Positions 9,574 through 57,063 of a stretch of DNA of 64,000 nt are shown here, piece after piece (the first letter of the stretch is position 1; each line of letters opens with the position of its first letter). The stretch spans positions 1-64,000 of the IMG/VR virus record IMGVR_UViG_3300044980_000048; one strand, written 5' to 3'. Origin of the DNA: a virus. The notes below the pieces were generated by a model. That model was not told the origin of the DNA. It made no database searches and saw nothing but the letters and a program-made list of their open reading frames with translations. The position numbers and the translations under genes are program-made.

Positions 9574-10262
9574 GGGCTTTAGATTTATTCTGCGGCGCGG
9601 GTGGGGCAAGCATGGGGCTGCATCTAGCAGGGTTTGAAGTAGTTGGCGTGGATATTAAGCCTCAAAAGAATTACCCCTTTACATTTGTGCAAGCGGACGC
9701 GATGAAACTGCCACTTCGCTTGTCGGACTTCGATTATATCTGGGCTTCTCCACCATGTCAGGAATACAGTGTCACAAAGAAACTGAGGAAAGCCATTAGT
9801 AAGAACGAATATCCCGAAATGATAGAACCTGTACGCACCATGCTGAAAAGCAGTGGAAAACACTATACCATAGAGAACGTGCGCGGAGCGCCCTTGCATA
9901 ACGCTATAATGCTTTGCGGAACTATGTTCGGGCTGCGGGTACTGCGTCACCGCCTTTTCGAGAGCAGCTTTTTGGTGCTTGCGCCAGGCCATCCTCCACA
10001 TAGAGGCGGTACTAATTCCTCTAGGGGGTATTCCACGTATGCAAACGGGGCAAAATACATTTGTGTCGCTGGGCAGAACTATATCCGCACAGAAGGCGCA
10101 GCAGCTATGGGCATAGATTGGATGACAAACCGGAATGAATTAAGTGAGAGCATACCTCCAGCTTATTCTAAGTTTATCGCAGAAGCTTGTATTAATCAGC
10201 TAAAGCCTTCTTCAGATGCACCTCGTCATCCGAAATATGAGAATATATCTTTGCCAGCATAG
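9570..10262 (+). CDS. DNA cytosine-5 methyltransferase (short)
   Basis: A 230-residue protein with motif I DLFCGAGG (5-12), motif IV ASPPCQEYS with catalytic Cys63, motif VI ENV (102-104) and motif VIII RHRLFE (126-131). It probably methylates phage DNA against host restriction. At 230 residues it is shorter than typical C5 enzymes, with a small target-recognition region. The last 71 bp overlap the integrase gene on the other strand, so its C-terminal tail may be incidental. Confidence 0.88.
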   Translation: MRALDLFCGAGGASMGLHLAGFEVVGVDIKPQKNYPFTFVQADAMKLPLRLSDFDYIWASPPCQEYSVTKKLRKAISKNEYPEMIEPVRTMLKSSGKHYTIENVRGAPLHNAIMLCGTMFGLRVLRHRLFESSFLVLAPGHPPHRGGTNSSRGYSTYANGAKYICVAGQNYIRTEGAAAMGIDWMTNRNELSESIPPAYSKFIAEACINQLKPSSDAPRHPKYENISLPA

Positions 10263-11043
10263 AGCCGTCAGTATGGCCCATGATGGCGGCGACGGTGAGG
10301 TGGTCATGCCCCTGAATCAATTTGCGCGTCCCAAACCCATGACGGGCGGCATAGGCAAACATGCGCTTGCCAGTCTTGCGCGAGATACGGATAAAGCGAT
10401 TGCACACGCTGTATTTTGTCCAAGCATCGCCGCGCTTATTACGGAACAGTGCGCCTTCTGGGTTAGCAGCCAGCAGTCTCGTGATGATTTCGAGGGCTGC
10501 ACCTTGCAGGTAGATAATGCGCTTCTGTCTCTTGCCCTTGCTCTCTTCAGCAGGAAATACAATGCGCTCCCGTTCAAGCTCCACATGTCGCGGTTCGATG
10601 GCTCTCGCTTCCTGCGGGCGGCAACCGGATGTCCAGATGAACACCACGAAGTCGTGGAACGGATCGCTTTGTGGAACATGCGAAAGCACTTCCTGATAGT
10701 CCTCTGGCTTCATGTATATCTCGCGGCGCTTTGCTGGCGGTTTCTTCATGCGGGCAAGCGGGGTGCTTTCAATATGGCCCTGCTCAATGCCCCAATTCCA
10801 TACGCGCTGCACGGCTACGATAGCGCCTCGCGCATAGGTGCTGCCCCAAGTCGTTTTGCTATCAACCCACTCCGTAACGTGGAAAGGCTTGATAGCCGTA
10901 GCGTCCAAATCGGCAATGCCGGGGTGCTTGATGAAATCTTTGAGATAACCATTGTACCATTCGCACGAACGCGGCGCACGATGCTTCCCGCACCAAGCGG
11001 AGTATTTGGTAACGAGTGCGTTTACTGAAAGTGTGTTTTCCAT
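10192..11043 (-). CDS. int: Phage tyrosine integrase
   Basis: About 283 residues. The N-terminal SAM-like core-binding domain includes CEWYNGYLKDFIKHPG. The catalytic domain has TSGCRPQEARA (first Arg), a KGKRQKR beta-hairpin Lys, YAARHGFGTRKL (second Arg; the usual first His of the HxxR box is Tyr), MGHTDGSMLAKIYSH and the nucleophilic Tyr near the C terminus. ATG 11043 is used; a TTG at 11061 would add six residues. It is the only minus-strand gene in the left 14 kb, convergent with the methyltransferase and divergent from a small DNA-binding gene, as expected for a lysogeny switch. Confidence 0.9.
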   Translation of the reverse strand: MENTLSVNALVTKYSAWCGKHRAPRSCEWYNGYLKDFIKHPGIADLDATAIKPFHVTEWVDSKTTWGSTYARGAIVAVQRVWNWGIEQGHIESTPLARMKKPPAKRREIYMKPEDYQEVLSHVPQSDPFHDFVVFIWTSGCRPQEARAIEPRHVELERERIVFPAEESKGKRQKRIIYLQGAALEIITRLLAANPEGALFRNKRGDAWTKYSVCNRFIRISRKTGKRMFAYAARHGFGTRKLIQGHDHLTVAAIMGHTDGSMLAKIYSHISDDEVHLKKALAD

Positions 11044-44607: not shown

Positions 44608-45094
44608 GTAATTTTACATTCCATCCCGCAATTAAGCACCATTCAAGTAAACCCACTCGCAAAAGTCCAATGATATTGTTATACCGTTCGCTTCGTTCTC
44701 CATGCTCTATGGCAAGCTCTGCAAAAGTCTTATCGTTGTCACATATAGCCTTACAAACTGAAAATGCTACAGTATGATCTTTAGCCATTAATTCTTGCCA
44801 TACCCTGAATCTTTTTAGAACATCCAACACAAAATCATTGTATTCGCTTGCGCTGATTCCGGGCAATTCCCCATACTTAAATTGACGATAATTAACCAAA
44901 CCGCCATATGACACGCGAATCCCTATAGCTATTTGAATCATTGCATCAATTTCCTGATCGGTAAGCCTCTCCATAAGCCTGTGGACTGACTTGCGCATGA
45001 AGAACGCACGATATGTCCGTGCCTGAGAAAGTTTCCGTAAGGCAGGGACTACACTATCAACGGGTGAAAACTTCTTTTTGGGGAGTTTTTTCAT
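44600..45094 (-). CDS. Hypothetical protein downstream of terminase
   Basis: A 164-residue helical protein (TDQEIDAMIQIAIGIRVSYG, DNDKTFAELAIEHGERSERY). The TFAELA...SERYNNIIGLLRVG segment could be a helix-turn-helix. It overlaps the terminase stop. A small terminase subunit is possible, but no motif proves it. Confidence 0.55.
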   Translation of the reverse strand: MKKLPKKKFSPVDSVVPALRKLSQARTYRAFFMRKSVHRLMERLTDQEIDAMIQIAIGIRVSYGGLVNYRQFKYGELPGISASEYNDFVLDVLKRFRVWQELMAKDHTVAFSVCKAICDNDKTFAELAIEHGERSERYNNIIGLLRVGLLEWCLIAGWNVKLPA

Positions 45095-46719
45095 ACGGGA
45101 TAAAGCGGGTCGGGATCGTTTCCGGTGAATATTGAAGATTCCATTTCGGCACGTTGCGTTTCTTCCGGCATAAGCGCAAGACCGAGTTTGCGGAGATACC
45201 CAAGGCCCATGGTAAGGGCGTCTACCATATCATCGTGTTTTGCCTTGGGAAAGCTACTGCATTGGTTAATGCATGCATCTACCCAACTCCTGTCAGGAGC
45301 ATAGACGCAATTCGCTGAGAATAGTGGAACAACGGCATGAGCGCGCGCCGTCTTGCTGGTATCGGCGGGATAGGGGAAAATCTGAAATTCCTGTGGACTG
45401 CAAATGCGTTGCATCTCCTGCAATATACTCTGCCCGCTGGCCTTATCTTCAATGATTGCAACATCCACTTTCCTTCTGCGACAAGTGGCAATCGTTTTTT
45501 CCAGCAGGTCATTAAAAGCAAGACGCTCATTCCATACTTCCACTAGCATGATTTTGCTTAATCCCTGCCTGTTTTTGAATACACCAAGCACTACGCAAGC
45601 GGATGGATCGTTTTCTTCTTTCTCCTTAAAAGCGGTATCGAACGAAGCCACTACATATTCAAAATCAGGGTAACTCGGCTGCATGGCAACTTTCATCGTG
45701 CCATCCTTGCCGCGCCATTTTACCTGTTTCATCCATATTTCCTCTTCACCTTCAGGGGGCCATAACTGCCACCATTCACGCTTGATGATGCCGCCCCCGC
45801 GCGGTGCTGGAATTTGCTGATATTGGCCAGCATACGCATATGGCCCTTTGATTTTCTGAAGGCCCTTAACAACATCGTAAGAAAATCTTTCTTCCCACGC
45901 CAACTCGCCCTCTTCAGTGCGCGGGTCTTCCCATCCGATGTCTGTAGAGCATTTACGCATCGAATCAAATTCCATCGGAACCATGACATGAACATATCCC
46001 GTGCCATATTCCAAAAGTGTGTTCGTCGCGTCATCTTCGCTGGTGCGCTGCTGAATATTCACTATTACGCCCGTCTGCATATTATTAAGACGATCAGGCA
46101 TCGTTTCGCGTAACCATGTATTTGTTGTCAACATCACGGCTTCTGATTCTGAATCATCCGTTGAATTTGCATCGTCTATCAATATACGGTCTGCACGCTC
46201 GCCAGTACCCATGCCGCCTATAGAACTGGCTATTTTCCATCCCGTCTTATCGTTTGAAACCTTGATAACGCTTTCCTGTTCCACCTGAAATACATCTCCC
46301 CACTTTGCCTGATAATCGTCATGAAGGATTATTTTAAGAAAACGTCCGTTATCACGTACTGTGAGGCGTTGCGAGTAGGAAAAATTTAAATAACGCAGAT
46401 GCGGCATCTTTTGCGGCCCCCATTCCCACGCGGGCCAAAAGACGCATACACAAAGGCTTTTCATAAATCCGGGGGGCACATTAAAAATCACTTTCCTGAT
46501 AATACCGAACGTAATCGCTTCAAGGTGCAAGCATATCGCATCCAATGGCCATCCCCACACTAAAGGCGTTTCAGGTTCAACGATATGCCAATGTTTCTTG
46601 ATAAATTCCGCTAATGATTCCTCACATGCCTCTTTTTCACGAACAATCTCCAACCTTTCCTTCAGGGATTGAAGAAGCGCATTATCAGGAAGCGGTTGTA
46701 GAATCTGTTGCTTTGCCAT
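45091..46719 (-). CDS. terL: Terminase large subunit
   Basis: A 542-residue packaging motor with a Walker A variant VPPGFMKSL (81-89), Walker B ILIDD (179-183), a TWLRETMPDRLN coupling region, and a C-terminal RNase H-like nuclease with ASFDTAF, VAIIEDKASG and KHDDMVDAL. It pumps DNA into the prohead through the portal and cuts concatemers. The gene begins inside the last codons of a glycosyltransferase gene, so the carbohydrate and packaging genes form one transcript. Confidence 0.93.
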   Translation of the reverse strand: MAKQQILQPLPDNALLQSLKERLEIVREKEACEESLAEFIKKHWHIVEPETPLVWGWPLDAICLHLEAITFGIIRKVIFNVPPGFMKSLCVCVFWPAWEWGPQKMPHLRYLNFSYSQRLTVRDNGRFLKIILHDDYQAKWGDVFQVEQESVIKVSNDKTGWKIASSIGGMGTGERADRILIDDANSTDDSESEAVMLTTNTWLRETMPDRLNNMQTGVIVNIQQRTSEDDATNTLLEYGTGYVHVMVPMEFDSMRKCSTDIGWEDPRTEEGELAWEERFSYDVVKGLQKIKGPYAYAGQYQQIPAPRGGGIIKREWWQLWPPEGEEEIWMKQVKWRGKDGTMKVAMQPSYPDFEYVVASFDTAFKEKEENDPSACVVLGVFKNRQGLSKIMLVEVWNERLAFNDLLEKTIATCRRRKVDVAIIEDKASGQSILQEMQRICSPQEFQIFPYPADTSKTARAHAVVPLFSANCVYAPDRSWVDACINQCSSFPKAKHDDMVDALTMGLGYLRKLGLALMPEETQRAEMESSIFTGNDPDPLYPV

Positions 46720-47677
46720 CTTCTTTAATCGTATTCGGCTTTATGTAGAATGTCTTTTCGCCCACATGGCCTAGCTGCGTAGACATATCAAAATCCATCC
46801 ATATCTTGAAGCCGGATTTGCGTACAAGCTTACAGAAGGTAATATCCTCTCCAAACGCATCACCATCTGCGTAGTTAGGGGGCTCATAGAAAGCTGGCAT
46901 ACCAATTGTCTGAAATACAGTAAGCTTGATAAGCTGGCAGCAGGAGCCGATTAAAGCCATTTCCACTAATCCTTGGCCTGCGCTTATTATCTTATGTGTT
47001 CCCGTTGAATCAGGAGGCGCAACGGCAACACCTATGGGAGTGCCGGTTTCATCGCCGCGTTTGCAGGCCGTTGCTGAGATTATATCAAGATTGTAGGAAA
47101 GAAACCTGTGCAGCAGAAACGAGGGAAACACCATATCGTTATCGAGGAAAAGTATGTGTGTAGCGCCATTCTTCATGGCGTCCTGCACCAAGCGATTACG
47201 GTTACTCGTAATGCGACTGCCCATACAATCGCGGATAATAAACTGGATATTATCTTGCTGTTTTATCGTCAGAAGCATGGCAATAAGGCTTTGCATGAAT
47301 TCCGCCTTCATGGAACCGTAATGTGGCAATCCGATATAAACTACGCGCTTGGGCGGCCTTACATCCGGTATCTGCGCATCGGGTATAATTTCCTTGACGC
47401 GGGCAAACATCTTCTCAGCTTCATCGTATTGCCCGGTAATACGGTAAATGTTACCCCAATTATACATCGCTCTGTCATGGCGCGGGTCTAGCTCTATCGC
47501 TTTCTTAAAGCACATACCCGCATAGTCCTGATCGCCCTTGGCCATCTTGAGACAGCCCATATAATGCCAACCGTTAGCAAGTTCTGGATTTTCCTCAAGT
47601 ATAGAAGCCAGAAGCGAAAAAGCTTCATCGGATTTATTCTCGCGCAGGAGGGATTCTATGAAGGAGAAATCGGTCAC
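46685..47677 (-). CDS. TPR - glycosyltransferase (GT-A) fusion
   Basis: 330 residues from a GTG. Residues ~1-95 are TPR repeats (NGWHYMGCLKMAKGDQDYAG, MYNWGNIYRITGQYDEAEKM). From ~108 a GT-A-like domain follows (VVYIGLPHYGSMKAEFMQSL, THILFLDNDMVFP with a DxD-like acidic site, SATACKRGD, DFDMSTQLGHVG). Such TPR-GT2 fusions occur in bacterial surface glycan clusters. It overlaps the next GT gene and terL. Confidence 0.72.
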   Translation of the reverse strand: MTDFSFIESLLRENKSDEAFSLLASILEENPELANGWHYMGCLKMAKGDQDYAGMCFKKAIELDPRHDRAMYNWGNIYRITGQYDEAEKMFARVKEIIPDAQIPDVRPPKRVVYIGLPHYGSMKAEFMQSLIAMLLTIKQQDNIQFIIRDCMGSRITSNRNRLVQDAMKNGATHILFLDNDMVFPSFLLHRFLSYNLDIISATACKRGDETGTPIGVAVAPPDSTGTHKIISAGQGLVEMALIGSCCQLIKLTVFQTIGMPAFYEPPNYADGDAFGEDITFCKLVRKSGFKIWMDFDMSTQLGHVGEKTFYIKPNTIKEDGKATDSTTAS

Positions 47678-48336
47678 AGTTTTAACCTCTCTCTAACACG
47701 TTTCAAATCTTCTTGGTACTTCGGCCCGTTGATATATGCCTTATATGCCGCACCGTCATCCGTATGCGAAGGCTGCGTTGCGTAGGTAGTATCAAATTCG
47801 GCTTTCCCTACCTGCCAGTGGCGATGCTCAAGCAATACGTCGCTGCAATATCGTGCCAAACCTAATTCAAGAGCGAATGTGCGCCATATCAAGTCAGCGC
47901 TGCCCCGTTTTATGTATGGCGGGCATAGCCATCCCCATGCGCGTACCAGATCGCCGCCAATAAAGGGATGCGTTGCAGCAAACCTGTCCTGATGAATTCC
48001 ATCATCGCCCCATGCCACGCAATAGGGAATACAGGCGTCACGCAACCGAACATCCCATTTTTCCGTCATAGGAGCTACATCATCGGCAATCAGCGCATAC
48101 CACGGCTCATTTGGGTTTTCTTCAACCACGCCATTCATTGCCGCCGCTAAATCACGGCATTTTTTATTAATCTTAAAATTCCAAGTAGCAGGAAAATTCC
48201 TTATGATTCTTTCGTAAACAACAAAATTATCCTCGTCGATCACTACGGTAACGGGCAGAGTTGCAGCAGTGACTTCATACGCCTTAATAAAGCGATTCAG
48301 GCTATCAGGACGGCCACGGGTAGGAAGGATAATCAC
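47674..48336 (-). CDS. Glycosyltransferase family 2-like protein
   Basis: 220 residues from a GTG. MIILPTRGRPDSLNRFIKAY and VTVVIDEDNF are the first strands of a GT-A fold. WYALIADDVAPMTEKWD has the acidic metal site, and the C terminus has LLEHRHWQVGKAEFDTTY. The donor sugar is unknown. It is coupled to neighbours by 4-bp overlaps. Confidence 0.7.
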   Translation of the reverse strand: MIILPTRGRPDSLNRFIKAYEVTAATLPVTVVIDEDNFVVYERIIRNFPATWNFKINKKCRDLAAAMNGVVEENPNEPWYALIADDVAPMTEKWDVRLRDACIPYCVAWGDDGIHQDRFAATHPFIGGDLVRAWGWLCPPYIKRGSADLIWRTFALELGLARYCSDVLLEHRHWQVGKAEFDTTYATQPSHTDDGAAYKAYINGPKYQEDLKRVRERLKL

Positions 48337-49160
48337 AACAGCCCTCTTTCCTGTAAAATATGCTTCTGCGTCACTTTGGAGAATATCTCAAAACCTGCTT
48401 CTGCAACATTCTGTACACCATCCTGCAACTTCAAGACAGTGTGGCAGGTTTCAACAATATTATCATAATTGCAAAACAGCGCTGCGTTATAGTAAGGCTT
48501 CTCAAGTTCCTTGTCTGCACCATACTCGGAAACCACGCATACCTTATTCGCAAACAGGTGGGAGCAGCGGATAATCTCAAAAATAGCAGCCTGATAGTAG
48601 TGAAGGTTTAGCACCAATTTGCTCTGCGCAATATACTTATCCCGTTCTGCGCCGTACTTTCCAAATAGCGTAAAAATATTAAGTCCGGTTTTCTTCAGGT
48701 CATTGAGGATTCTTTCACGGCGAATATTGAGCGACCCATAGAAAAGAACGTCTATTTTCTTTTCCTGATCTAACTCTATATTGCCCATGGACGGACAATA
48801 TCCAATCGGCACGTACTTGGCCTCAATGCCAAATCCTTTGAGTCTTTGCACGTTTAAATGCGAGTAATCCCATACTTCATGCTCGCGGAGCATCTGAAGG
48901 TAATGATTCGTCATCCAAGCGTTGCCGGTGAGCGTATCAATTTGCTCGGTCTGATAGATAACGGCATCGGCAGGTAGTTTTATAATCTCTCCATCAGTCA
49001 AATGTGCGCCGAAGACAAGCGGCGCACTGTAATGTGTCTTCGGATCAATCGCCATGGGAACGTTAAGTGCGTAATAAAAACCTGTAGCAACTTCCCTGAA
49101 AGCCTCGCTATGGATATATCCTTCAGGCTTAACAAGCCATACAGATTTCACCGTGCTCAT
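48333..49160 (-). CDS. GT-B-like glycosyltransferase
   Basis: A 275-residue protein. PIGYCPSMG, KKIDVLFYGSLNIRRERILN, NIFTLFGKYGAERDKYIAQS, KLVLNLHYYQAAIFEIIRCS and NKVCVVSEYG match the donor-binding half of GT-B enzymes. The FEIIR Glu and surrounding residues are the usual nucleotide-sugar site. It lies in the glycan operon. Confidence 0.7.
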   Translation of the reverse strand: MSTVKSVWLVKPEGYIHSEAFREVATGFYYALNVPMAIDPKTHYSAPLVFGAHLTDGEIIKLPADAVIYQTEQIDTLTGNAWMTNHYLQMLREHEVWDYSHLNVQRLKGFGIEAKYVPIGYCPSMGNIELDQEKKIDVLFYGSLNIRRERILNDLKKTGLNIFTLFGKYGAERDKYIAQSKLVLNLHYYQAAIFEIIRCSHLFANKVCVVSEYGADKELEKPYYNAALFCNYDNIVETCHTVLKLQDGVQNVAEAGFEIFSKVTQKHILQERGLL

Positions 49161-50140
49161 TGATACGCCTCATCATTGAAGGCGATATACCTATTCTTCG
49201 CGGCATCACGGTTAGCGCCATACCAAGCAATCGTGTCGCGTATGCCGTCTTCAAGGCCCACCCGCGCATGAAATCCATAGCCCGCAGCCTTGGTCATATC
49301 CATCACGCGCTGATTATCGCCTCCCGGCATCGTCTGATCCCATACTATCTCACGCGGCCCACCGGGAGCATGTTTGGCTACAAGCTCTGCTACATCGGCA
49401 ATCGTCACGGGATTGCCGCTGCCTAAGTTTATAGGTTCATGAATACCTTTCTCAACGGCAAGCATCGTCCCCGCTGCAACGTCTTCTGCATGGATGAAAT
49501 CACGGTATGCCGCACCGCTTCCCCAGACCGTCAAAGGCCCATCGTTCTCCACTACGCGGGCAATTAGAGAGGGCAATACCATAGCCGTTTCCGAGTCAAA
49601 GTTATCCCATGGCCCATACACATTGGCTGGCCTCACAATAGATGTCCTGAAGCCAAACTCTTCTGCATAGGCAGCCGCCTGCAATTCTCCCATCCGCTTC
49701 GCCCATCCCGCATACCAGTCATTAGGCGACGGAAAGCCATCCCACATATCGCCCTCATGAAAGACTTCCGCAGGCGGATAGACCCCTACGGTGCTGGTAT
49801 AAAGATAATGCTTCACCTTGGCGCGTCTGGCCGCCTCCATCATGTTGATGGAAGTCTGTAATATCGGAGTGAAAAACCTCGCCGGATATTTCTTTGTGGC
49901 AGAAGGCGAACCCTTAACGCCTACAAGGTTAAATACAATATCCTTGCCTTGGCATGCGCTCTCGCAATTCGAGAATTCCCTTAAGTCGCACCTGTGGTTG
50001 CCATCCATGGAGGCATTGTAAACAATAGCATCACGCCTGCGCAGCATTTCTACCAGCGGACGGCCTATAAGGCCGGTGCCGCCTGCTACCAATACTTTCT
50101 TGCCCTCATAGAAGTTTTTCACGCGAAATTTTCCCGTCAT
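49157..50140 (-). CDS. NAD-dependent sugar epimerase/dehydratase (extended SDR)
   Basis: A 327-residue protein. VLVAGGTGLIG (NAD-binding GxxGxxG), LYTSTVGVYPPAE (catalytic Ser/Thr), WYAGWAKRMGE (YxxxK), VRPANVYGPWDNF and YRDFIHAEDVA give a complete extended SDR. It most resembles GDP-fucose-synthase or GDP-sugar epimerase/reductases. Clustering with a GDP-mannose dehydratase supports a GDP-sugar substrate. Confidence 0.8.
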   Translation of the reverse strand: MTGKFRVKNFYEGKKVLVAGGTGLIGRPLVEMLRRRDAIVYNASMDGNHRCDLREFSNCESACQGKDIVFNLVGVKGSPSATKKYPARFFTPILQTSINMMEAARRAKVKHYLYTSTVGVYPPAEVFHEGDMWDGFPSPNDWYAGWAKRMGELQAAAYAEEFGFRTSIVRPANVYGPWDNFDSETAMVLPSLIARVVENDGPLTVWGSGAAYRDFIHAEDVAAGTMLAVEKGIHEPINLGSGNPVTIADVAELVAKHAPGGPREIVWDQTMPGGDNQRVMDMTKAAGYGFHARVGLEDGIRDTIAWYGANRDAAKNRYIAFNDEAYQ

Positions 50141-51066
50141 TTATTTTCCTGAAACCACTTCCACGTTTTATGGATGCCCTGTTCCAGCATCGTTATCGGA
50201 TGCCAGCCAATCTGTTCCTGCGCATAGGAACAGTCCAGCGACACACTCATGTCAATCGTTGGCTTACTTGTATCGTAGGTTATATTGATTTTCTTTCCCG
50301 ATGCCTCAATTATCTTGGCCACAAGTTCATTGATCGGCGTTGCCGTTCCACTGCCGCAGTTGAATAATTCATAGGAATTTTTCTGCCGTTCTATGGCGCA
50401 CTGGACGAATGAAACCAAGTCGTCAATGTAAAGTAAATCCCGCGCCTCGGTGCCGTTGCCCCATACAATAATATCCTTATCGGCCTGCGCAACCTTCGTC
50501 ATCGTAGCGCCAAACACATGCGTGCGCTCAAGATCAAATTTATCGTAAGGCCCGTAAAAGTTACTTCCGCGTATCACGGTAAACTTTGTTTCGCCAAGGC
50601 CAGCGTAAAAGGCGCACATTTTTTCATTGTACAGCTTGGTATTCACCATCCCAAAATAGCGCGGATGCGGGAAGACTTCCGCCATCTCGTTTACATGGCC
50701 ACCGCTGTACATCGTCGAGCAACTGAAATAAACGACCTGCTTAACCTTATGCTCGAATGCCGAACGGAATATATAGGCATTCATCACCGCGTTATCCGTC
50801 ACGTGAATCCAAGGCTTGCCAAACGTGTCCTGACAGCCCGACGTTACCGCCGCAGCCTGAATGACAATATCCTTGTCCTGCATAACGGCATCGACATTCT
50901 CAGGATCGCACAAATCCGCATGCAACCATTTTACGTTAATATGCCTCCATGGAAGCTTTTCATGAACCACACACGTAACATCATAGCCGGGATGTTCAGC
51001 GAGTCGCTTTGCAATATTGCGTCCAAGGAAACCCGTTGCGCCTAATACCAAAACCTTCTGTTTCAT
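50137..51066 (-). CDS. Second SDR sugar epimerase, atypical active site
   Basis: 309 residues from ATG 51066. VLVLGATGFLGRNI and VIRGSNFYGPYDKFDLERTH are clear SDR features, and DLLYIDDLVSFV matches GDP-L-fucose synthase. SCSTMYSGG carries the Ser. Around the expected YxxxK the sequence is RYFGMVNTKLYNEK, where Tyr and Lys are not at the standard spacing. Activity needs caution. It is likely paired with the other SDR. Confidence 0.75.
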   Translation of the reverse strand: MKQKVLVLGATGFLGRNIAKRLAEHPGYDVTCVVHEKLPWRHINVKWLHADLCDPENVDAVMQDKDIVIQAAAVTSGCQDTFGKPWIHVTDNAVMNAYIFRSAFEHKVKQVVYFSCSTMYSGGHVNEMAEVFPHPRYFGMVNTKLYNEKMCAFYAGLGETKFTVIRGSNFYGPYDKFDLERTHVFGATMTKVAQADKDIIVWGNGTEARDLLYIDDLVSFVQCAIERQKNSYELFNCGSGTATPINELVAKIIEASGKKINITYDTSKPTIDMSVSLDCSYAQEQIGWHPITMLEQGIHKTWKWFQENK

Positions 51067-51890
51067 AGCCAACCTATTTCCTTTGCTGCATCCTGAAAAT
51101 AACCGGGAAAGAATTTCTTTGGGTCAATGCGCTCTGTGACGGTGCCGCGATTAAATAGATCAGCGCCGGTCTTCAGGCATTCAGCGATGTGATCGGGAGA
51201 TTTGAATTCATCGCTGTTTAACTCCTGATGCGAAAAATTCTCCACCTTGTTCCTGATTGCCTTCTCGCCGCCCATATAACTAAGATGCCAGCCGCCATCC
51301 GGCACAAAACCGCACATATTACGCCTATTACGCATCTCCTGCGCCCCTGTCAGCAAGGCCATCCGCACGGTAGTCAGTATCGTTCCGTGCCAATGCTCAT
51401 GCCGCAGGTTCGTCAAGTCGTAATAGAAAAACGCCTGCCTGCATGCCACGATAGCATCCGCCGTAATCCATTCCGTTGCCCACTCTATCGCCTTGCGCGA
51501 AGGGAATTCGTCCACATCCCCCATCATGAACGTATCTTCCTGCTTGATGCCAAGTTCCAATATATCCTTGCGCGGTGCAGTCAGAATATCGGTAAGGGAA
51601 TTGCGTTGAGTCTTCTCCACGTGCCACCAGACGGAATTAGGATCAAACTGCTTGGGCTTCTCGGAAAAGTCCAGATGCGATACATCTATCCGGACTGGAT
51701 GATGGATAATCTTATGCTTCCACGGCGCAAAGCGTTCGCGGTTGTCCCAATAATGAAACGGCTTATCCTTGCCGCTAAAAGTCTTATCAGCTTCGCAAAT
51801 GATAAACTTATCGACATAGGGGGAAAGAAGACGAAGACGAAACTCTAGTATGTCCAATTCCGAGTCAAACAACACCGCATCCAAAAGCAT
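51063..51890 (-). CDS. Glycosyltransferase family 17-like
   Basis: A 275-residue protein. DAVLFDSELDILEFRLRLLS, YVDKFIICEADKTFSGKDKP, TFMMGDVDEFPSRKAIEWA (DxDE) and GWHLSYMGG are hallmark GT17 segments (beta-1,4-N-acetylglucosaminyltransferase family, common in viruses and bacteria). The acceptor is unknown. Coupled by 4-bp overlap. Confidence 0.82.
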   Translation of the reverse strand: MLLDAVLFDSELDILEFRLRLLSPYVDKFIICEADKTFSGKDKPFHYWDNRERFAPWKHKIIHHPVRIDVSHLDFSEKPKQFDPNSVWWHVEKTQRNSLTDILTAPRKDILELGIKQEDTFMMGDVDEFPSRKAIEWATEWITADAIVACRQAFFYYDLTNLRHEHWHGTILTTVRMALLTGAQEMRNRRNMCGFVPDGGWHLSYMGGEKAIRNKVENFSHQELNSDEFKSPDHIAECLKTGADLFNRGTVTERIDPKKFFPGYFQDAAKEIGWL

Positions 51891-52135
51891 TACAACGTCC
51901 TTACGATAAGATAGTTTTGATAACTAAGAGGCCAGACACGATATTGGCTATCCACCATCGTCGGGACTCCATGGCAATTCTTCAACAAATCATCCGCCAG
52001 CAGCTTATCAATTATAAAATCATCAACATGCGTCAGCGGATGCGCGGTGCAATTCGGGCCAATTGCATATACTCGCGGAAATAAAAACGCGGGGGAAAAA
52101 TCTTTTACTTTAGGGGGATTTTCTTCTGAAGACAT
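51890..52135 (-). CDS. Hypothetical protein in glycan operon
   Basis: An 81-residue protein with PRVYAIGPNCTAHPLTHVDD and LLADDLLKNC. Its stop shares one base with the GT17 start. No family is recognised. Confidence 0.5.
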   Translation of the reverse strand: MSSEENPPKVKDFSPAFLFPRVYAIGPNCTAHPLTHVDDFIIDKLLADDLLKNCHGVPTMVDSQYRVWPLSYQNYLIVRTL

Positions 52136-52170
52136 CGGAGCGCCCGGTGTTTGAGTTGCAGTATATTAAT

Positions 52171-53382
52171 CTAAGTCGTCTGAAATTTCAACATGAATTC
52201 ATCAAAGCAGTCTCCGACATACTCACAATCATCGCGCGACACGCCCTGATGACAGCCTATGGCAAAGCCTCTGTCCATGATCGTGTTGCTGTTTTCGAGG
52301 CTGCCTGAAACGCGATGCTCATACATTTTCATGGCCGGTTGCCGCGCCATATTACCCGCGATGATAGGCCGCGTCTCTATGCCTTTCGCGTTCAGGAACC
52401 TTACAATCTCTGCCCGCGTGAACGGCGTATCCTTAAGTATGATCCCGAATCCAAACCAACTGCTTAATCCAAAGATTTGCTGTTGCTGCAATATAAAATA
52501 ATCCGAATACCTCTCAAGGCGGTTTCTATAGGCATGCGTCACATTACATCTATCCTGTACAAAGCCATACAGCTTCGGTAACTGTACCATGCCCATTGCG
52601 GCCTGTATCTCGGTTGGCCGCAGGTTATAGCCGATATTCACAAACAGGAAGCGCGGATCGATGTTCGGATACAAGTCTGCATATTTCTGGCTATTATCCG
52701 CCTCGCGTGACCAGCCGTGCGCCCTGAGTATCCGCATCAAATCGGCAAACTCTGCGTTATCCGTCAGGCACAGACCCCCTTCAAACGTGGTAATGTGATG
52801 CGAGTAGTACAGGCTCATGGTGCCGACAATACCAAAACTGCCGGTATATTTATTATCTATGCCCGCACCCATAGACTCGCAGGAATCCTCAATAACATAT
52901 AAGCCATGCTTCCCGGCCACCTGCATTATACCGTCATGGAAACTACCATTCATGTGGCACGGATTGCCGTACACATGCACCAGCATGATAGCCTTGGTTT
53001 TATCGGTGATCGCCGCTTCAATCGCCTGCGGCGTGACGTTGAATGTGTTTATATCGCAGTCCACAAACACCGGCACAAGGCCGTGCTGTATCAGCGGCCA
53101 TACGCTCGTTGCCCATGACAGCGCGGGCACAATCACTTCATCTCCGGGTTTCAGCCTGTCATTCCACGCGGGATTACTGAGCGCGGCAACCGCAAGCAGG
53201 TTAGCCGACGATCCGGAGTTACACATCACGCAATGCCTGACGCCGAAATACTCTGCGCACATTTGCTCGAACCTGCGCACCTGCCTGCCCATGGTGACAT
53301 CGCCGGTACGCATCTGCGCTACCATGGCGGAGATTTCCTCTTCGCCAAAGGTGGGAGCGTGAAGTTTTACACTGCGTTCCAT
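52171..53382 (-). CDS. DegT/DnrJ-fold enzyme with His for the PLP lysine (ColD/RfbH-like)
   Basis: 403 residues from ATG 53382 (GGAGAG upstream). SGSSANLLAVAAL, VIVPALSWATSVWPL, YVIEDSCESMGA (PLP-binding Asp166) and SHHITTFEGG, where His195 sits at the usual Schiff-base lysine. This substitution marks sugar 3-dehydratases such as ColD (GDP-4-keto-6-deoxymannose 3-dehydratase) and RfbH. With GDP-mannose 4,6-dehydratase next door, formation of GDP-4-keto-3,6-dideoxymannose is a strong inference. Confidence 0.85.
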   Translation of the reverse strand: MERSVKLHAPTFGEEEISAMVAQMRTGDVTMGRQVRRFEQMCAEYFGVRHCVMCNSGSSANLLAVAALSNPAWNDRLKPGDEVIVPALSWATSVWPLIQHGLVPVFVDCDINTFNVTPQAIEAAITDKTKAIMLVHVYGNPCHMNGSFHDGIMQVAGKHGLYVIEDSCESMGAGIDNKYTGSFGIVGTMSLYYSHHITTFEGGLCLTDNAEFADLMRILRAHGWSREADNSQKYADLYPNIDPRFLFVNIGYNLRPTEIQAAMGMVQLPKLYGFVQDRCNVTHAYRNRLERYSDYFILQQQQIFGLSSWFGFGIILKDTPFTRAEIVRFLNAKGIETRPIIAGNMARQPAMKMYEHRVSGSLENSNTIMDRGFAIGCHQGVSRDDCEYVGDCFDEFMLKFQTT

Positions 53383-53543
53383 TGTCTCTCCAATTGTTCC
53401 AATCGTCTCTGCATCGGCGCTATCCCCAGAATCTCCCGCGCCTGAATATCGCTGCAAGGCGCATATCCTTCTATCTTCACGATGCCCGGATGAACGCGGG
53501 TTACGATATATCCGTTCACGGTATGTTTTACCTCGTCAGGCAT
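53367..53543 (-). CDS. Hypothetical 58-residue protein
   Basis: MPDEVKHTVNGYIVTRVHPG... then a helix (MQRRLEQLERQW). It starts inside the GMD 3' end and overlaps the ColD-like start, bridging the two genes. No family is recognised, but the coupling supports expression. Confidence 0.5.
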   Translation of the reverse strand: MPDEVKHTVNGYIVTRVHPGIVKIEGYAPCSDIQAREILGIAPMQRRLEQLERQWNAV

Positions 53544-54571
53544 GGCGTCCTCTTCACCTTATCGCGCCAGTATTGTAATAAATCCTGCATGGTAGTCTCA
53601 AAGGGTATCTCTGGTTTCCAGCCGCTATGATTACGAAACTTACTGGTATCGAATTTTTGCAAGTCCGCATCAATAGGCCGCAAGCGTTCCGGGTCTATCT
53701 CAACATATATCTCGCTACCATCTCCGGGCCCCTGAAATTTATTGCGGGTTTTGCGCTCTGAAAGCGACAATAAATAACCAAGCATATGCCCGACGCTGCG
53801 ATATTCATCGCCTGCAATATTGTAATATTCCCCGGCAACAGGATTGATTGTTACCAGCATATGATATGCCCGTACCGCATCCCGTACATCGGCATAGGTG
53901 CGCAGAGAATCTACATTACCAACTTTCACCACTGAAGGTATCTGACCCGCTTCAATCATCGCTATCTGCTTGGCAAACGATGACTCCGCGAATACATCGC
54001 CGCGCCTTGGGCCGGTATGAGTTCCCATCCGCGTCACCATCACGCACATGCTGTAAGCTTCCGCGTAGTGCCGCGCAATCAATTCCGTTCCCACCTTTGA
54101 AATCGCATACGGGCTGGATGGGTGAAAACTACACTCTTCGTCAATCGGCAGCTTCTCTTCAGGCACTCGGCCAAACACTTCCGACGACCCGCATACATGA
54201 ATCACGGCGCTACATGCATCCGCCTTGCACGCCTCAAGCACCCTGTGCGTGCCTTGTACGTTCGTCTCGTAGGTATCAAGCGCCGCCGTGAACGATGTTT
54301 TCGGATACGACTGCGCCGCCAGATGAAACACGTAATCGGGAGCCGCTTCACGCACTGCCGCGTTTATCGAATCGGAATCCCGCAAGTCGCCGTACAGCAG
54401 CTTCACCCTCCCGCCTTTATTTACTTCCGGCAGAAGATGTGCTATGTTATCCAGAGGCGAACGCCATCTGATTAATCCGTAAATATCCCAATCGGTGTGC
54501 CCAAGCAGGTAATCCGCAAGATGCGACCCCACCATTCCCGATATGCCCGTAATGAAGCAGCGCGCTTTCAT
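53528..54571 (-). CDS. gmd: GDP-mannose 4,6-dehydratase-like SDR
   Basis: A 347-residue protein. CFITGISGMVGSHLADYLL (NAD site), YGLIRWRSPLDNIAHLLPE, KLLYGDLRDSDSINAAVREA, DYVFHLAAQSYPKTSF, GSSEVFG and SPYAISK (YxxxK), VGNVDSLRTYADVRD. These match GMD-family enzymes that make GDP-4-keto-6-deoxymannose. It is the first gene of the leftward carbohydrate operon and supplies the ColD-like enzyme's substrate. Confidence 0.85.
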   Translation of the reverse strand: MKARCFITGISGMVGSHLADYLLGHTDWDIYGLIRWRSPLDNIAHLLPEVNKGGRVKLLYGDLRDSDSINAAVREAAPDYVFHLAAQSYPKTSFTAALDTYETNVQGTHRVLEACKADACSAVIHVCGSSEVFGRVPEEKLPIDEECSFHPSSPYAISKVGTELIARHYAEAYSMCVMVTRMGTHTGPRRGDVFAESSFAKQIAMIEAGQIPSVVKVGNVDSLRTYADVRDAVRAYHMLVTINPVAGEYYNIAGDEYRSVGHMLGYLLSLSERKTRNKFQGPGDGSEIYVEIDPERLRPIDADLQKFDTSKFRNHSGWKPEIPFETTMQDLLQYWRDKVKRTPCLTR

Positions 54572-54585
54572 TCTCAACTAATAAC

Positions 54586-55560
54586 ATGATACTCTCCAAG
54601 ACGCCATACCGTATTTCCTTCTTCGGCGGCGGCTCGGACTTCCGCGAGTTCTATGAACAACACGGCGGCAAGGTGCTATCGGCCACGATCAACCACTACT
54701 GCCGCATCATGGTGCGCAGGCTACCCCCGTTCTTTACCGAGAAGTCCCGCGTCATCTGGTCGCAGATAGAAAACGTATCCGACATCTGCTACATCACCCA
54801 CCCTGCGGCACGGGCCATCCTTTATCACATGGCCGAAGACCGTATCGAAATCATCCACTCAGGCGACCTGCCAGCCCGTTCAGGACTAGGCTCAAGCTCG
54901 GCCTTCACGGTGGGGCTACTCAATGCCATGCATGCACTCAGGATGCCCCACTATGCCTTGCCCGACCTTAACGGACTGTCACTTGCTCCCAAGCATCTCG
55001 CCACCGAAGCAATCTGCATCGAACGCGACATCCTGCGCGAAAACGTAGGCATCCAAGACCAGATTGCCTGCACATACGGGGGCTTCAACAAGACCACCAT
55101 CCATACGGACGGGGCATTTACGCTTGACCCCCTGAAGCCCGACAAGGCGCTGCAAGACCACCTGCTGCTGTTCTTCACCGGCATCACGCGCAACTCTTCC
55201 GATATTGCCGCCCAGCAGATAAAGGAAATCCACACCAAGACCGCCGACCTGAAGCATCTCATGTCGCTTGTCGATACCGCACTCGCCTCTCCCCTTGAAG
55301 ACTTCGGCAGACTCCTGCATGAAAGCTGGCTCATCAAGCGCAAACTGTCGCCGTCAATCACTACGGATTTTATCGACGGCATATACACGAAGGCTCTCAA
55401 TGCCGGTGCAGAGGGAGGTAAGCTGCTCGGTGCCGGTGGGGGTGGGTTCATGCTGTTCTTCGCCAAGCCTGAGTATCATAAACATATCATAAAATCGTTA
55501 GGACTGCTGCACGTCCCGTTTCAATTCGAGAGCAAGGGTTCACACATATGTCACGCATAG
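54586..55560 (+). CDS. GHMP sugar kinase (heptose/fucose kinase-like)
   Basis: A 324-residue protein. KTPYRISFFGGGSDFREFY, LPARSGLGSSSAFTVG (GHMP motif 2) and GGKLLGAGGGGFMLFF (motif 3) match HddA-type D-glycero-D-manno-heptose-7-P kinases and related sugar kinases. The gene is divergent from gmd with 14 bp between start codons and no Shine-Dalgarno. It begins a GC-richer four-gene run. Confidence 0.85.
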   Translation: MILSKTPYRISFFGGGSDFREFYEQHGGKVLSATINHYCRIMVRRLPPFFTEKSRVIWSQIENVSDICYITHPAARAILYHMAEDRIEIIHSGDLPARSGLGSSSAFTVGLLNAMHALRMPHYALPDLNGLSLAPKHLATEAICIERDILRENVGIQDQIACTYGGFNKTTIHTDGAFTLDPLKPDKALQDHLLLFFTGITRNSSDIAAQQIKEIHTKTADLKHLMSLVDTALASPLEDFGRLLHESWLIKRKLSPSITTDFIDGIYTKALNAGAEGGKLLGAGGGGFMLFFAKPEYHKHIIKSLGLLHVPFQFESKGSHICHA

Positions 55561-55964
55561 TATGCTGTAGCGGTGGGTTCGATCCGCTCACTTCAGGCCA
55601 CATAGACTACATCGAAGACGCCGCCAACTACGGCAGGGTTATCGTCATTCTTAATTCAGATGAGTGGCTCATACGAAAGAAGGGCTACCTGTTCATGCCT
55701 TGGCCGCAGCGGGCAAAGATACTATGCGCCCTTCGCGCAGTATATGGGGTAATCTCGGTAGATGACTCAGACGGCTCTGTATCTTCCGCGCTACGCCACA
55801 GCGGCGCGTCATACTTCGCCAACGGCGGCGACCGCACGGCAGATAATACGTTAGAGTTAGACGTATGCCGCGAACTTGGCATTACACCGTTGTTTAACAT
55901 CGGCGGGGGAAAAACGGCCTCAAGCAGCGAACTGGTGAGGGCGGCATGCAGGCAGATGAACTGA
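55548..55964 (+). CDS. Nucleotidylyltransferase (cytidylyltransferase-fold)
   Basis: A 138-residue protein. CCSGGFDPLTSGHIDYIEDA (TxGH variant of HxGH), VIVILNSDEWLIRKKGYLFM, PWPQRAKILCALRAVYGV and SSSELVR near the end. Such proteins activate sugar phosphates (RfaE C-domain, TagD). It overlaps the kinase by 13 bp, suggesting kinase then nucleotidyl transfer on one sugar. Confidence 0.8.
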   Translation: MSRIVCCSGGFDPLTSGHIDYIEDAANYGRVIVILNSDEWLIRKKGYLFMPWPQRAKILCALRAVYGVISVDDSDGSVSSALRHSGASYFANGGDRTADNTLELDVCRELGITPLFNIGGGKTASSSELVRAACRQMN

Positions 55965-56539
55965 TAGCTTTCGAGCGTGACATAGCCAGCCTGTACAACG
56001 CGGGTGCCATACGCGCCCCCATCCACCTGTCGTCCGGTAATGAGCAGCAGTTGATTGAAGCGTTCAAAGGCTTCAAACAAAACGACTGGTGCTACTGTAC
56101 ATGGCGTTCCCATCTGCATGCCCTGCTGGCCGGTGTACCCGCAGCCAAGGTCAAGGCCGCTATCATGGCAGGCAGGTCTATGACGCTCTGCTTTCCGGAG
56201 CATCGGTTCTTTTCATCAGCCATCGTCGCCGGGTGTTGCCCTATCGCGGTGGGTACGGCATGGCAGATCAGGCAGCGGGGCGGGAAAGAGCGCGTGTTTT
56301 GCTTCCTTGGCGACATGGCTGCATTGACAGGACTTGCCTTTGAATGCGGCAACTATGCCAAGTGGCATGACCTGCCGATAACATGGGTAGTGGAAGACAA
56401 CGGCATGAGTGTATGTACCGATACGCTTGACGCATGGGGCTGCAAAGAACCACGGCAACAGACGCAGGCCATCGCTACAGGATACAACTACGTTTTGGGC
56501 TATCCTCACTCAGGCGCGGGCAGGCGCGTGAATTTTTGA
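55946..56539 (+). CDS. Thiamine-diphosphate E1 alpha-like protein
   Basis: A 197-residue protein. IHLSSGNEQQLIEAFKG, HLHALLAGVP, ERVFCFLGDMAALTGLAFEC and PITWVVEDNGMSV match the PP-binding domain of E1 alpha subunits of 2-oxo acid dehydrogenases, with the GD-x(~27)-N cofactor motif. It is shorter than standard E1 alpha (~330). It must pair with the following gene, which carries the Pyr domain. No lipoyl E2 partner is present, so acyl transfer to a sugar is more likely than dehydrogenase work. Confidence 0.72.
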   Translation: MQADELIAFERDIASLYNAGAIRAPIHLSSGNEQQLIEAFKGFKQNDWCYCTWRSHLHALLAGVPAAKVKAAIMAGRSMTLCFPEHRFFSSAIVAGCCPIAVGTAWQIRQRGGKERVFCFLGDMAALTGLAFECGNYAKWHDLPITWVVEDNGMSVCTDTLDAWGCKEPRQQTQAIATGYNYVLGYPHSGAGRRVNF

Positions 56540-57063
56540 CAGGAAACTCCGCATATTCTGACAACCTCTGCAAGGCTATGGCTTTATTCGCCTCACAGCC
56601 TAACGCCGTAGTGGTGGGGCAGGCCGTGGCATGTCCGGGTACTGCTATGTTCAACACGCTCCGTGACGTTCCCATGTCGCAGCGCCTTGAGTTTCCGGTC
56701 GCGGAAATCTTCCAGCTTGGCTTCTGCACCGGCATCGCATTGTCTGGTGGACTGCCGTTGTGCATCTTCCCCCGTATCAACTTCATGCTTGAGGCCATCA
56801 GCCAGCTTGTGCAGCATCTGGACAAGATACCGCTATTCAGCGACTACCGGCCTAAAGTGCTGATTCGCACCGCCATCGCAACCCCGATACCGCTAGACGC
56901 AGGCCCGCAGCATCTTGGCGATTACACGGATGCGGTGAAGGCGATGCTGTCAACAGTGCGGGTTGTGAGACTAACAACAGCGGAAAGCGTGCTTCCGGCC
57001 TATCAGGAAGCCATAAACTGTGCTGATTCTGTGATTCTGGTTGAGGACATGGGTTTATATTGA
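56536..57063 (+). CDS. Thiamine-diphosphate E1 beta-like (Pyr domain) protein
   Basis: 175 residues from a TTG at 56536 that overlaps the alpha stop (TTGA). SAYSDNLCKAMALFASQPNA, EFPVAEIFQLGFCTGIALSG (with the cofactor-activating Glu), LCIFPRINFMLEAISQLVQH and PLDAGPQHLGDYTDAVKAML match transketolase pyrimidine-binding domains. The C-terminal transketolase domain of a full E1 beta is missing. ATG 56578 would cut into the first conserved helix, so TTG is preferred. Confidence 0.7.
   Translation: MTGNSAYSDNLCKAMALFASQPNAVVVGQAVACPGTAMFNTLRDVPMSQRLEFPVAEIFQLGFCTGIALSGGLPLCIFPRINFMLEAISQLVQHLDKIPLFSDYRPKVLIRTAIATPIPLDAGPQHLGDYTDAVKAMLSTVRVVRLTTAESVLPAYQEAINCADSVILVEDMGLY

Follow-up and report, generated by a model that had tools for sequence, protein, structure and literature searches.

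A split, minimal E1-like thiamine enzyme in a phage sugar cassette: a candidate route to C4-branched, nucleotide-activated heptoses

Introduction

In the GDP-3,6-dideoxy-heptose pathway of Campylobacter jejuni (HS:5/HS:11; PMC10440746, PMC10680097), a GDP-heptose 4,6-dehydratase and a pyridoxal phosphate (PLP)-dependent C3-dehydratase yield GDP-3,6-dideoxy-4-keto-heptose (PMC10440746). The 4,6-dehydratase and a Cj1427-type C4-dehydrogenase both form GDP-4-keto-heptose in this organism (PMC10680097), and the C4-reductases of its heptose pathways are relatives of GDP-fucose synthase (PMC7949155). Other pathways add a two-carbon branch to ketosugars by means of split enzymes that resemble the E1 component of pyruvate dehydrogenase (PDH), as do AviB1/AviB2 and Pau11/Pau12 (PMC4425429). 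EvdU5/EvdS3 is a proposed split branching pair (PMC10338323), and KbDH-alpha/beta and the aldgamycin alphaKADH2 are further sugar-branching pairs, with pyruvate as donor according to in vitro assays of KbDH on pyruvate plus ketones and to knock-out and feeding for aldgamycin (PMC12247030). The single-chain enzyme YerE acts on CDP-3,6-dideoxy-4-keto-glucose (PMC12247030). Here we analyse a sugar gene module in which a minimal E1 alpha/beta-like pair adjoins heptose-type enzymes, and which probably directs the synthesis of a branched heptose. It lies in a 64,000-base stretch of viral DNA (hereafter the window), bases 1-64000 of the 66,708-base virus record IMGVR_UViG_3300044980_000048 of the IMG/VR database.

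Results

The thiamine-diphosphate pair

The products of the last two genes of the module can be aligned with the alpha and beta subunits of PDH E1. Relative to PDH E1, the alpha protein lacks the C-terminal third, and the beta protein lacks the entire C-terminal domain, ending after the pyrimidine-binding domain; the family median lengths are 209 aa for alpha and 180 aa for beta. The C-terminal domain of E1-beta docks the E2 component in PDH and in branched-chain ketoacid dehydrogenase (BCKDH). Neither the window's own virus record nor three related ones gave a match to E2 (PF00198), and no E2 lay next to the pair in those bacterial genomes that were searched. Loss of the E2-docking domain and the absence of a neighbouring E2 gene fit a carboligase rather than a component of a dehydrogenase complex. 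The probable start of the beta gene is the TTG at 56536, which overlaps the alpha stop codon as TTGA; this assignment follows from the window sequence and from homologues, which begin with ATGA overlaps.

The residues that correspond to magnesium and thiamine-diphosphate ligands and to catalytic residues are conserved in both proteins. H27, D123 (in a GDM motif), N152 and H188 of alpha are invariant or nearly so among 109-110 homologues, and the catalytic Glu, the His, the Arg and the Phe of beta are each present in 98/98 sequences. An earlier note on this DNA, made from the sequence alone, had linked a thiamine-diphosphate pair without E2/E3 to a ketosugar pathway, a link that our analysis supports. 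Neither of the observations that the note named as refuting it was made: no catalytic residue was lost in the census over 98-110 sequences, and no lipoyl E2 partner emerged from the records and surroundings searched. The note's view of a branching enzyme split into alpha and beta as a novelty in itself is not supported, since such pairs are already known (AviB1/AviB2, Pau11/Pau12, KbDH, aldgamycin).

The predicted fold of the window alpha protein (pLDDT 93) has PDH E1-alpha as its best PDB match, with a TM score of up to 0.84 of the query. A Prochlorococcus genome encodes a natural fusion of alpha and beta, which is predicted to fold as one compact unit (pTM 0.92) with transketolase and DXS as its best fold matches.

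Distribution and conserved neighbours

Relatives of the alpha protein are encoded on at least 335 IMG/VR contigs, 80 of which were fetched, and the genome scan gave at least 40 loci from Verrucomicrobia, SAR11, SAR116, Chloroflexi, archaea, candidate phyla radiation (CPR) and Prochlorococcus bins. Neighbourhoods were counted over 109 non-redundant loci, or over the 75 of them in which each flank spans 7 kb or more; single loci are given below as L numbers. In the tree, viral and bacterial rows are intermixed with 13 label changes, so exchange has occurred repeatedly. The window groups with L004, L005, L006 and L014 (SH-aLRT support 97), all of them phages with cassettes that contain the dehydratase and/or the His-type C3-dehydratase. 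Between four and eight cassette genes co-occur in independent phages at 53-71% identity, and because of this joint recurrence the module is not a chance assembly.

Of the 75 loci, 61 hold a GMD-like dehydratase, a Cj1427-type C4-dehydrogenase or both. The best PDB match of the latter enzyme is 6vo6 (1.2e-108), which bears a generic name in PDB and which we take to be Cj1427. The DegT-family neighbours of the pair are predominantly His-type. The window protein has His195 (numbered from the ATG at 53382) at the position of the PLP lysine, within a segment that aligns to ColD as SHHITTFEGG/SHHIATMEGG. Among 60 scorable DegT neighbours of E1 pairs, 54 are His-type and six are Lys-type, as against one His-type and 25 Lys-type proteins elsewhere in the same genomes (Fisher p ~6e-15, or ~4e-6 for non-redundant bacterial cases). 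These counts strengthen the earlier assignment of 3-deoxygenation to a ColD-like His195 enzyme and, together with the other neighbours, tie the E1 pair to the making of 4-keto sugars and in many cases also to 3-deoxygenation.

Several loci show further features. E1 alpha-beta fusions of ~400 aa occur in L008, L009, L115-L120 and L125, including cyanophages S-SM2 and P-TIM68, Prochlorococcus and CPR bins; they adjoin a Zn-alcohol dehydrogenase gene and, variously, HldD, PfkB and HldE-C genes, and possibly lead to a different product. The fused E1 cluster of L115, from a record titled Bifidobacterium breve metagenome-assembled genome, is ~71% identical to the Prochlorococcus protein; the species label or the binning is doubtful. 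An apparent fusion in L092 was rejected, its open reading frame (ORF) being over-extended upstream and holding E1-alpha alone. In a Pacearchaeota bin (L122:10606-12246), E1-beta is fused to a SPASM radical-SAM domain, and radical-SAM proteins of the same cluster adjoin the pair in related loci (L010, L116, L121, L124, L126). In the marine T4-like contigs L041-L085, several genes lie between E1-alpha and E1-beta, and alpha is usually followed by a conserved protein of 449 aa (cluster 8) that belongs to no known family. In L088-L097, L016, L019 and L034, the genes for HddA, the E1 pair and the C3-dehydratase are joined by one for a B12-binding radical-SAM protein (cluster 11), which suggests that the sugar is further C-methylated or rearranged.

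Heptose-type enzymes of the module

The dehydratase was previously read as GMD, making GDP-4-keto-6-deoxymannose. This assignment was rejected on the PDB ranking: GDP-heptose dehydratase 7us5 (159/329 identical residues, 48%, 326 bits) stands far above the best true GMD (3.3e-39, 138 bits), and the window protein scores 165.8 bits on the NCBI gmd model TIGR01472, for which the cut-off is 415. The YxxxK motif is kept. The GHMP kinase noted earlier is present and can be specified further, as its best NCBIfam match, although under the curated (equivalog) cut-off, is the D-glycero-D-manno-heptose kinase HddA (3.8e-35), and its top PDB chains, 3k85, 4usm and 4n3o, are heptose/sugar kinases. In sister phages L006 and L014, GmhA and HddC genes stand beside the dehydratase, C3-dehydratase, HddA, E1 pair and SDR (short-chain dehydrogenase/reductase) genes; their dehydratases are 68-69% identical to that of the window, and the C3-dehydratase of L006 is 63% identical to its window counterpart. 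Instead of GDP-4-keto-6-deoxymannose as the substrate, the dehydratase, the HddA-like kinase and the sister-phage genes thus point to GDP-heptose, and by homology the module sugar is probably a heptose activated with GDP (or another nucleoside diphosphate, NDP) rather than a GDP-hexose.

The module lacks HddC. Family searches of its ORFs recovered no RmlC-like epimerase, a gene found near the E1 pair in 56/109 loci, and the Pfam and NCBIfam searches no phosphomannomutase or GDP-mannose pyrophosphorylase. The module nucleotidylyltransferase, which has a T/HxGH motif, belongs to a family (NT30) carried by the window, L005, L015, L016, L019 and L034. Among the 109 loci, NT30 co-occurs with HddA in 6/6 cases and with HddC in 0/6, and HddC accompanies HddA in 12/13. 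Strict exclusivity of NT30 and HddC was not retained, the numbers being small and the test suggestive (0 vs 6, Fisher p = 0.057). The pattern suggests that, in viral cassettes of the GDP-heptose type, NT30 may take the place of the guanylyltransferase HddC.

The isolated Synechococcus phage Bellamy (L159, 8001-9014) encodes a dehydratase that shares 48% identity with the window enzyme; it is annotated just as a nucleotide-sugar epimerase, and its gene adjoins kinase and nucleotidyl transferase genes. Bellamy thus likely carries a GDP-heptose pathway, with no E1 pair nearby.

Two reductase-like proteins without the catalytic tyrosine

Two SDR epimerase/reductases had been predicted, and two SDRs are indeed present; both lack the catalytic Tyr of this family. 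At the position of Tyr136 in E. coli Fcl, SDR1 has Ala and SDR2 has Met, with Lys140 retained in both. Loss of this Tyr is common in the loci, where 98/114 such SDRs are Tyr-less and 43/48 loci with two or more SDRs hold two such proteins, whereas Tyr is kept in 47/48 dehydratases and 54/54 C4-dehydrogenases of the same loci. Tyr-less cluster-0 SDRs that keep Lys are conserved alongside the thiamine pair in ~60 loci. The loss of Tyr is compatible with activity because C. jejuni MlghC has Phe at this position.

Gene order and likely expression

The module forms two divergent runs (Table 1), one on the minus strand from 54571 down to 46685, the last gene of which overlaps that of the terminase large subunit, and one on the plus strand from 54586 to 57063. 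The contiguous sugar module described earlier is confirmed in its dehydratase, DegT protein, two SDRs, kinase, nucleotidylyltransferase and E1 alpha/beta-like proteins. Of the four glycosyltransferases previously counted, the GT17 and phrog_14945 proteins stand, while the TPR protein has a sub-threshold Anp1 match and the 275-aa protein matches no family.

Table 1. Genes of the sugar module and the adjoining terminase gene in the window
Feature	Coordinates	Strand	Evidence
HddA-like GHMP kinase, D-glycero-D-manno-heptose-7-phosphate kinase type	54586..55560	+	NCBIfam, PDB matches
HldE-C-like nucleotidylyltransferase, family NT30	55548..55964	+	CTP_transf_like and rfaE_dom_II matches
Minimal E1-alpha, 197 aa	55946..56539	+	Pfam E1_dh 7e-15
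Minimal E1-beta, ~175 aa, no Transketolase_C domain	56536..57063	+	family profile matches PDH E1-beta, best 1.6e-15
GDP-heptose-type 4,6-dehydratase, YAISK motif intact	53528..54571	-	PDB 7us5 1.9e-96
ColD-like C3-dehydratase, ColD/RfbH-like DegT protein (ORF reaches 53457)	52171..53382	-	best PDB match ColD 2gms 1.4e-85
81-aa ORF within the run	51890..52135	-	no Pfam match
Glycosyltransferase family 17 (GT17)	51063..51890	-	Glyco_transf_17 1.5e-29
SDR2, GDP-fucose-synthase-like, Met for catalytic Tyr	50137..51072	-	Pfam, alignment to E. coli Fcl
SDR1, GDP-fucose-synthase-like, Ala for catalytic Tyr	49157..50140	-	Pfam, alignment to E. coli Fcl
275-aa protein, candidate glycosyltransferase, unconfirmed	48333..49160	-	no Pfam, NCBIfam or PHROG match
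Glycosyltransferase	47674..48336	-	phrog_14945 8.3e-31
TPR protein, second half possibly GT-A-like	46685..47677	-	TPR_1 2.7e-11; Anp1 below cut-off
Terminase large subunit, downstream of and overlapping the sugar genes	45091..46719	-	phrog_38 1.6e-82

The minus-strand sugar genes of the window immediately precede the terminase and portal genes and run in the same direction, as does the entire cassette in L004 and L005. In L005 the mostly overlapping genes follow one another on a single strand in the order dehydratase, C3-dehydratase, NT30, alpha, beta, SDR2, HddA, SDR1, glycosyltransferase and terminase. The dehydratase and HddA-like genes diverge from 54571 and 54586, and the 14 bases that separate their start codons give no space for ordinary promoters, and a promoter scan around this point gave fewer sites than in shuffled sequences. 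Late expression is favoured because half of the module is codirectional with, and overlaps, the gene of the terminase large subunit. Lysogeny is possible, given a Phage_integrase match at 10228-10707 on the minus strand (6.5e-16), antisense to a 270-aa plus-strand ORF. Late expression with decoration of the virion or host during assembly is at least as likely as conversion of a lysogen. Comparison of the terminase large subunit with isolates gave nearest relatives at best 41% identical, so the host is not assignable.

Discussion

Gene content, homology class, conserved catalytic residues and conserved gene association are the observed basis of the pathway that we propose; from it we infer the nucleotide, the pyruvate donor, the C4 acceptor, the order of steps, the roles of the SDRs and the final target. 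The HddA-like kinase would phosphorylate C1 of host heptose-7-phosphate and, after a host phosphatase step, the HldE-C-like NT30 protein would attach the nucleotide in place of HddC. The 4,6-dehydratase would then form GDP-6-deoxy-4-keto-heptose, and the ColD-like enzyme GDP-3,6-dideoxy-4-keto-heptose. The E1 pair would decarboxylate pyruvate on thiamine diphosphate and add the acetyl carbanion so formed to the ketone at C4; the product would be a tertiary alcohol with an acetyl group on C4, a nine-carbon sugar. The two Tyr-less SDRs may complete the branch or the ring, by reduction or in another way, and the phage glycosyltransferases would attach the sugar to the host surface or to the virion. 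Transfer of acetyl from pyruvate to C4 is the most economical reading, by analogy with the split alphaKADH2 pairs of antibiotic sugars. We hold with moderate confidence that the module makes a GDP- or NDP-activated C4-branched heptose by this full pathway.

Several observations weigh on the other side. GmhA and GmhB are not in the window module. The window nucleotidylyltransferase is not HddC, which leaves GDP unproved as the nucleotide. Simple reduction by the SDRs is uncertain, both of them missing Tyr, and aldgamycin and kibdelomycin are branched at C3, the C4 acceptor being deduced here. In addition, 14/75 loci have no recognised 4-keto maker, including the fused-E1 group with HldE, HldD and Zn-alcohol dehydrogenase, which may do something else.

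That heptose genes recur near the pair, including those of the fused group just mentioned, and that the fused model matches DXS and transketolase folds would also suit a split enzyme of small size, akin to transketolase or DXS, that forms or extends a ketose phosphate for heptose synthesis and does not branch a sugar. This is unlikely: in sequence as well as in fold, PDH E1 alpha and beta stand closest, distinct split-transketolase genes (clusters 47/53) adjoin the pair in several bacterial loci, and many loci combine the pair with keto-sugar enzymes in the absence of heptose-phosphate genes. The alternative that the pair branches a GDP-hexose, namely the GDP-4-keto-3,6-dideoxymannose expected from GMD and ColD, to give a GDP analogue of yersiniose, draws on the membership of the dehydratase in the GMD superfamily, on the GDP-hexose substrate of ColD and on the likeness of the SDRs to GDP-fucose synthase. 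We regard it as quite improbable in view of the bit scores of the dehydratase and the lack of Pfam or NCBIfam matches to the two mannose-activating enzymes among the module ORFs; nor does it give a role to the HddA-like kinase or to GmhA and HddC of the sister phages.

A heptose branched at C3, or with a longer ketoacid, would be a different sugar built by the same genes. Known alphaKADH2 enzymes branch either C3 or C4 (PMC12247030), but they appear to be restricted to two-carbon donors (PMC12247030), and the co-occurring 3-dehydratases strip the C3 oxygen and leave C4 as the obvious ketone, which makes such a product quite improbable. Finally, the absence of C-terminal parts of PDH E1 from both subunits might indicate that the pair is a pyruvate decarboxylase, in decay or with an accessory role, which provides acetyl or redox groups and is incidental in the cluster. 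With invariant catalytic residues in ~100 homologues and a neighbourhood strongly conserved in viruses and bacteria, this explanation is very improbable.

The proposed C4-branched heptose pathway shares with that of C. jejuni an HddA-type kinase, a GDP-heptose 4,6-dehydratase, GDP-fucose-synthase-like SDRs and a His-type C3-dehydratase, the window enzyme being matched via ColD and hence alike by enzyme class. It differs in the lack of an RmlC-like C5 epimerase, in an HldE-C-like protein for HddC, in the added E1 pair and in the loss of Tyr from both SDRs, although MlghC of C. jejuni has Phe at that position as well. The alphaKADH2 pairs, compared by description, are likewise split PDH-E1-like thiamine enzymes that adjoin 4-keto-deoxysugar enzymes and have no E2/E3; however, they belong to antibiotic pathways and act on hexoses or a pentose, whereas the window pair occurs in a GDP-heptose context in phages and marine bacteria. 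Pau11/Pau12 are full length (325/345 aa), in contrast to the much shorter pair of the window. PDH E1 itself has the same fold and catalytic residues, and the window pair differs from it by its truncated alpha and by the lack of E2 and of the beta docking domain. The yersiniose A pathway follows the logic proposed here, in which a 3,6-dideoxy-4-keto NDP-sugar and pyruvate give a C4 two-carbon branch, but YerE is a single-chain flavoprotein of the acetolactate-synthase type acting on a CDP-hexose; no such protein, and no match to the YerE-type C domain (PF02775), was found in the window's own virus record. Lipopolysaccharide clusters with heptose-like genes are also borne by cyanophages S-SM2, P-TIM68 and P-SSM2 (PMC3037559). 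In S-SM2 and P-TIM68 the E1 protein is fused, unlike the split pair of the window, is annotated as 'transketolase central region' and occurs with HldD/PfkB and Zn-alcohol dehydrogenase; these clusters were noted in 2010 and no function was given for the fused protein (PMC3037559).

Split E1 branching chemistry and the heptose toolkit are thus each already known, while the minimal architecture, the heptose substrate, the wide viral spread and their combination appear to be new. We found no earlier description of phage GDP-heptose or branched heptose biosynthesis in the open-access papers searched. If the proposal is true, the Campylobacter heptose toolkit has been joined to two-carbon branching of the antibiotic type, giving a type of sugar of which we found no report, and a function would be provided for a phage protein family, on at least 335 IMG/VR contigs, that is labelled 'transketolase central region' or unknown (phrog_34187). 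The pair would be the smallest PDH-E1-fold carboligase seen in this analysis, free of E2 docking and useful for making chiral tertiary alcohols. For the minimal E1 family as a whole, in hundreds of phages and in marine bacteria, we see an even balance for and against the broader view that it builds C4-branched GDP-heptoses with Tyr-less SDR partners and so remodels the host surface or the virion. The same gene set is present in SAR11, SAR116, Verrucomicrobia and Chloroflexi, so that, if the proposal holds, many ocean bacteria may bear branched heptoses, which may serve as a target or a disguise in contests between phages and their hosts.

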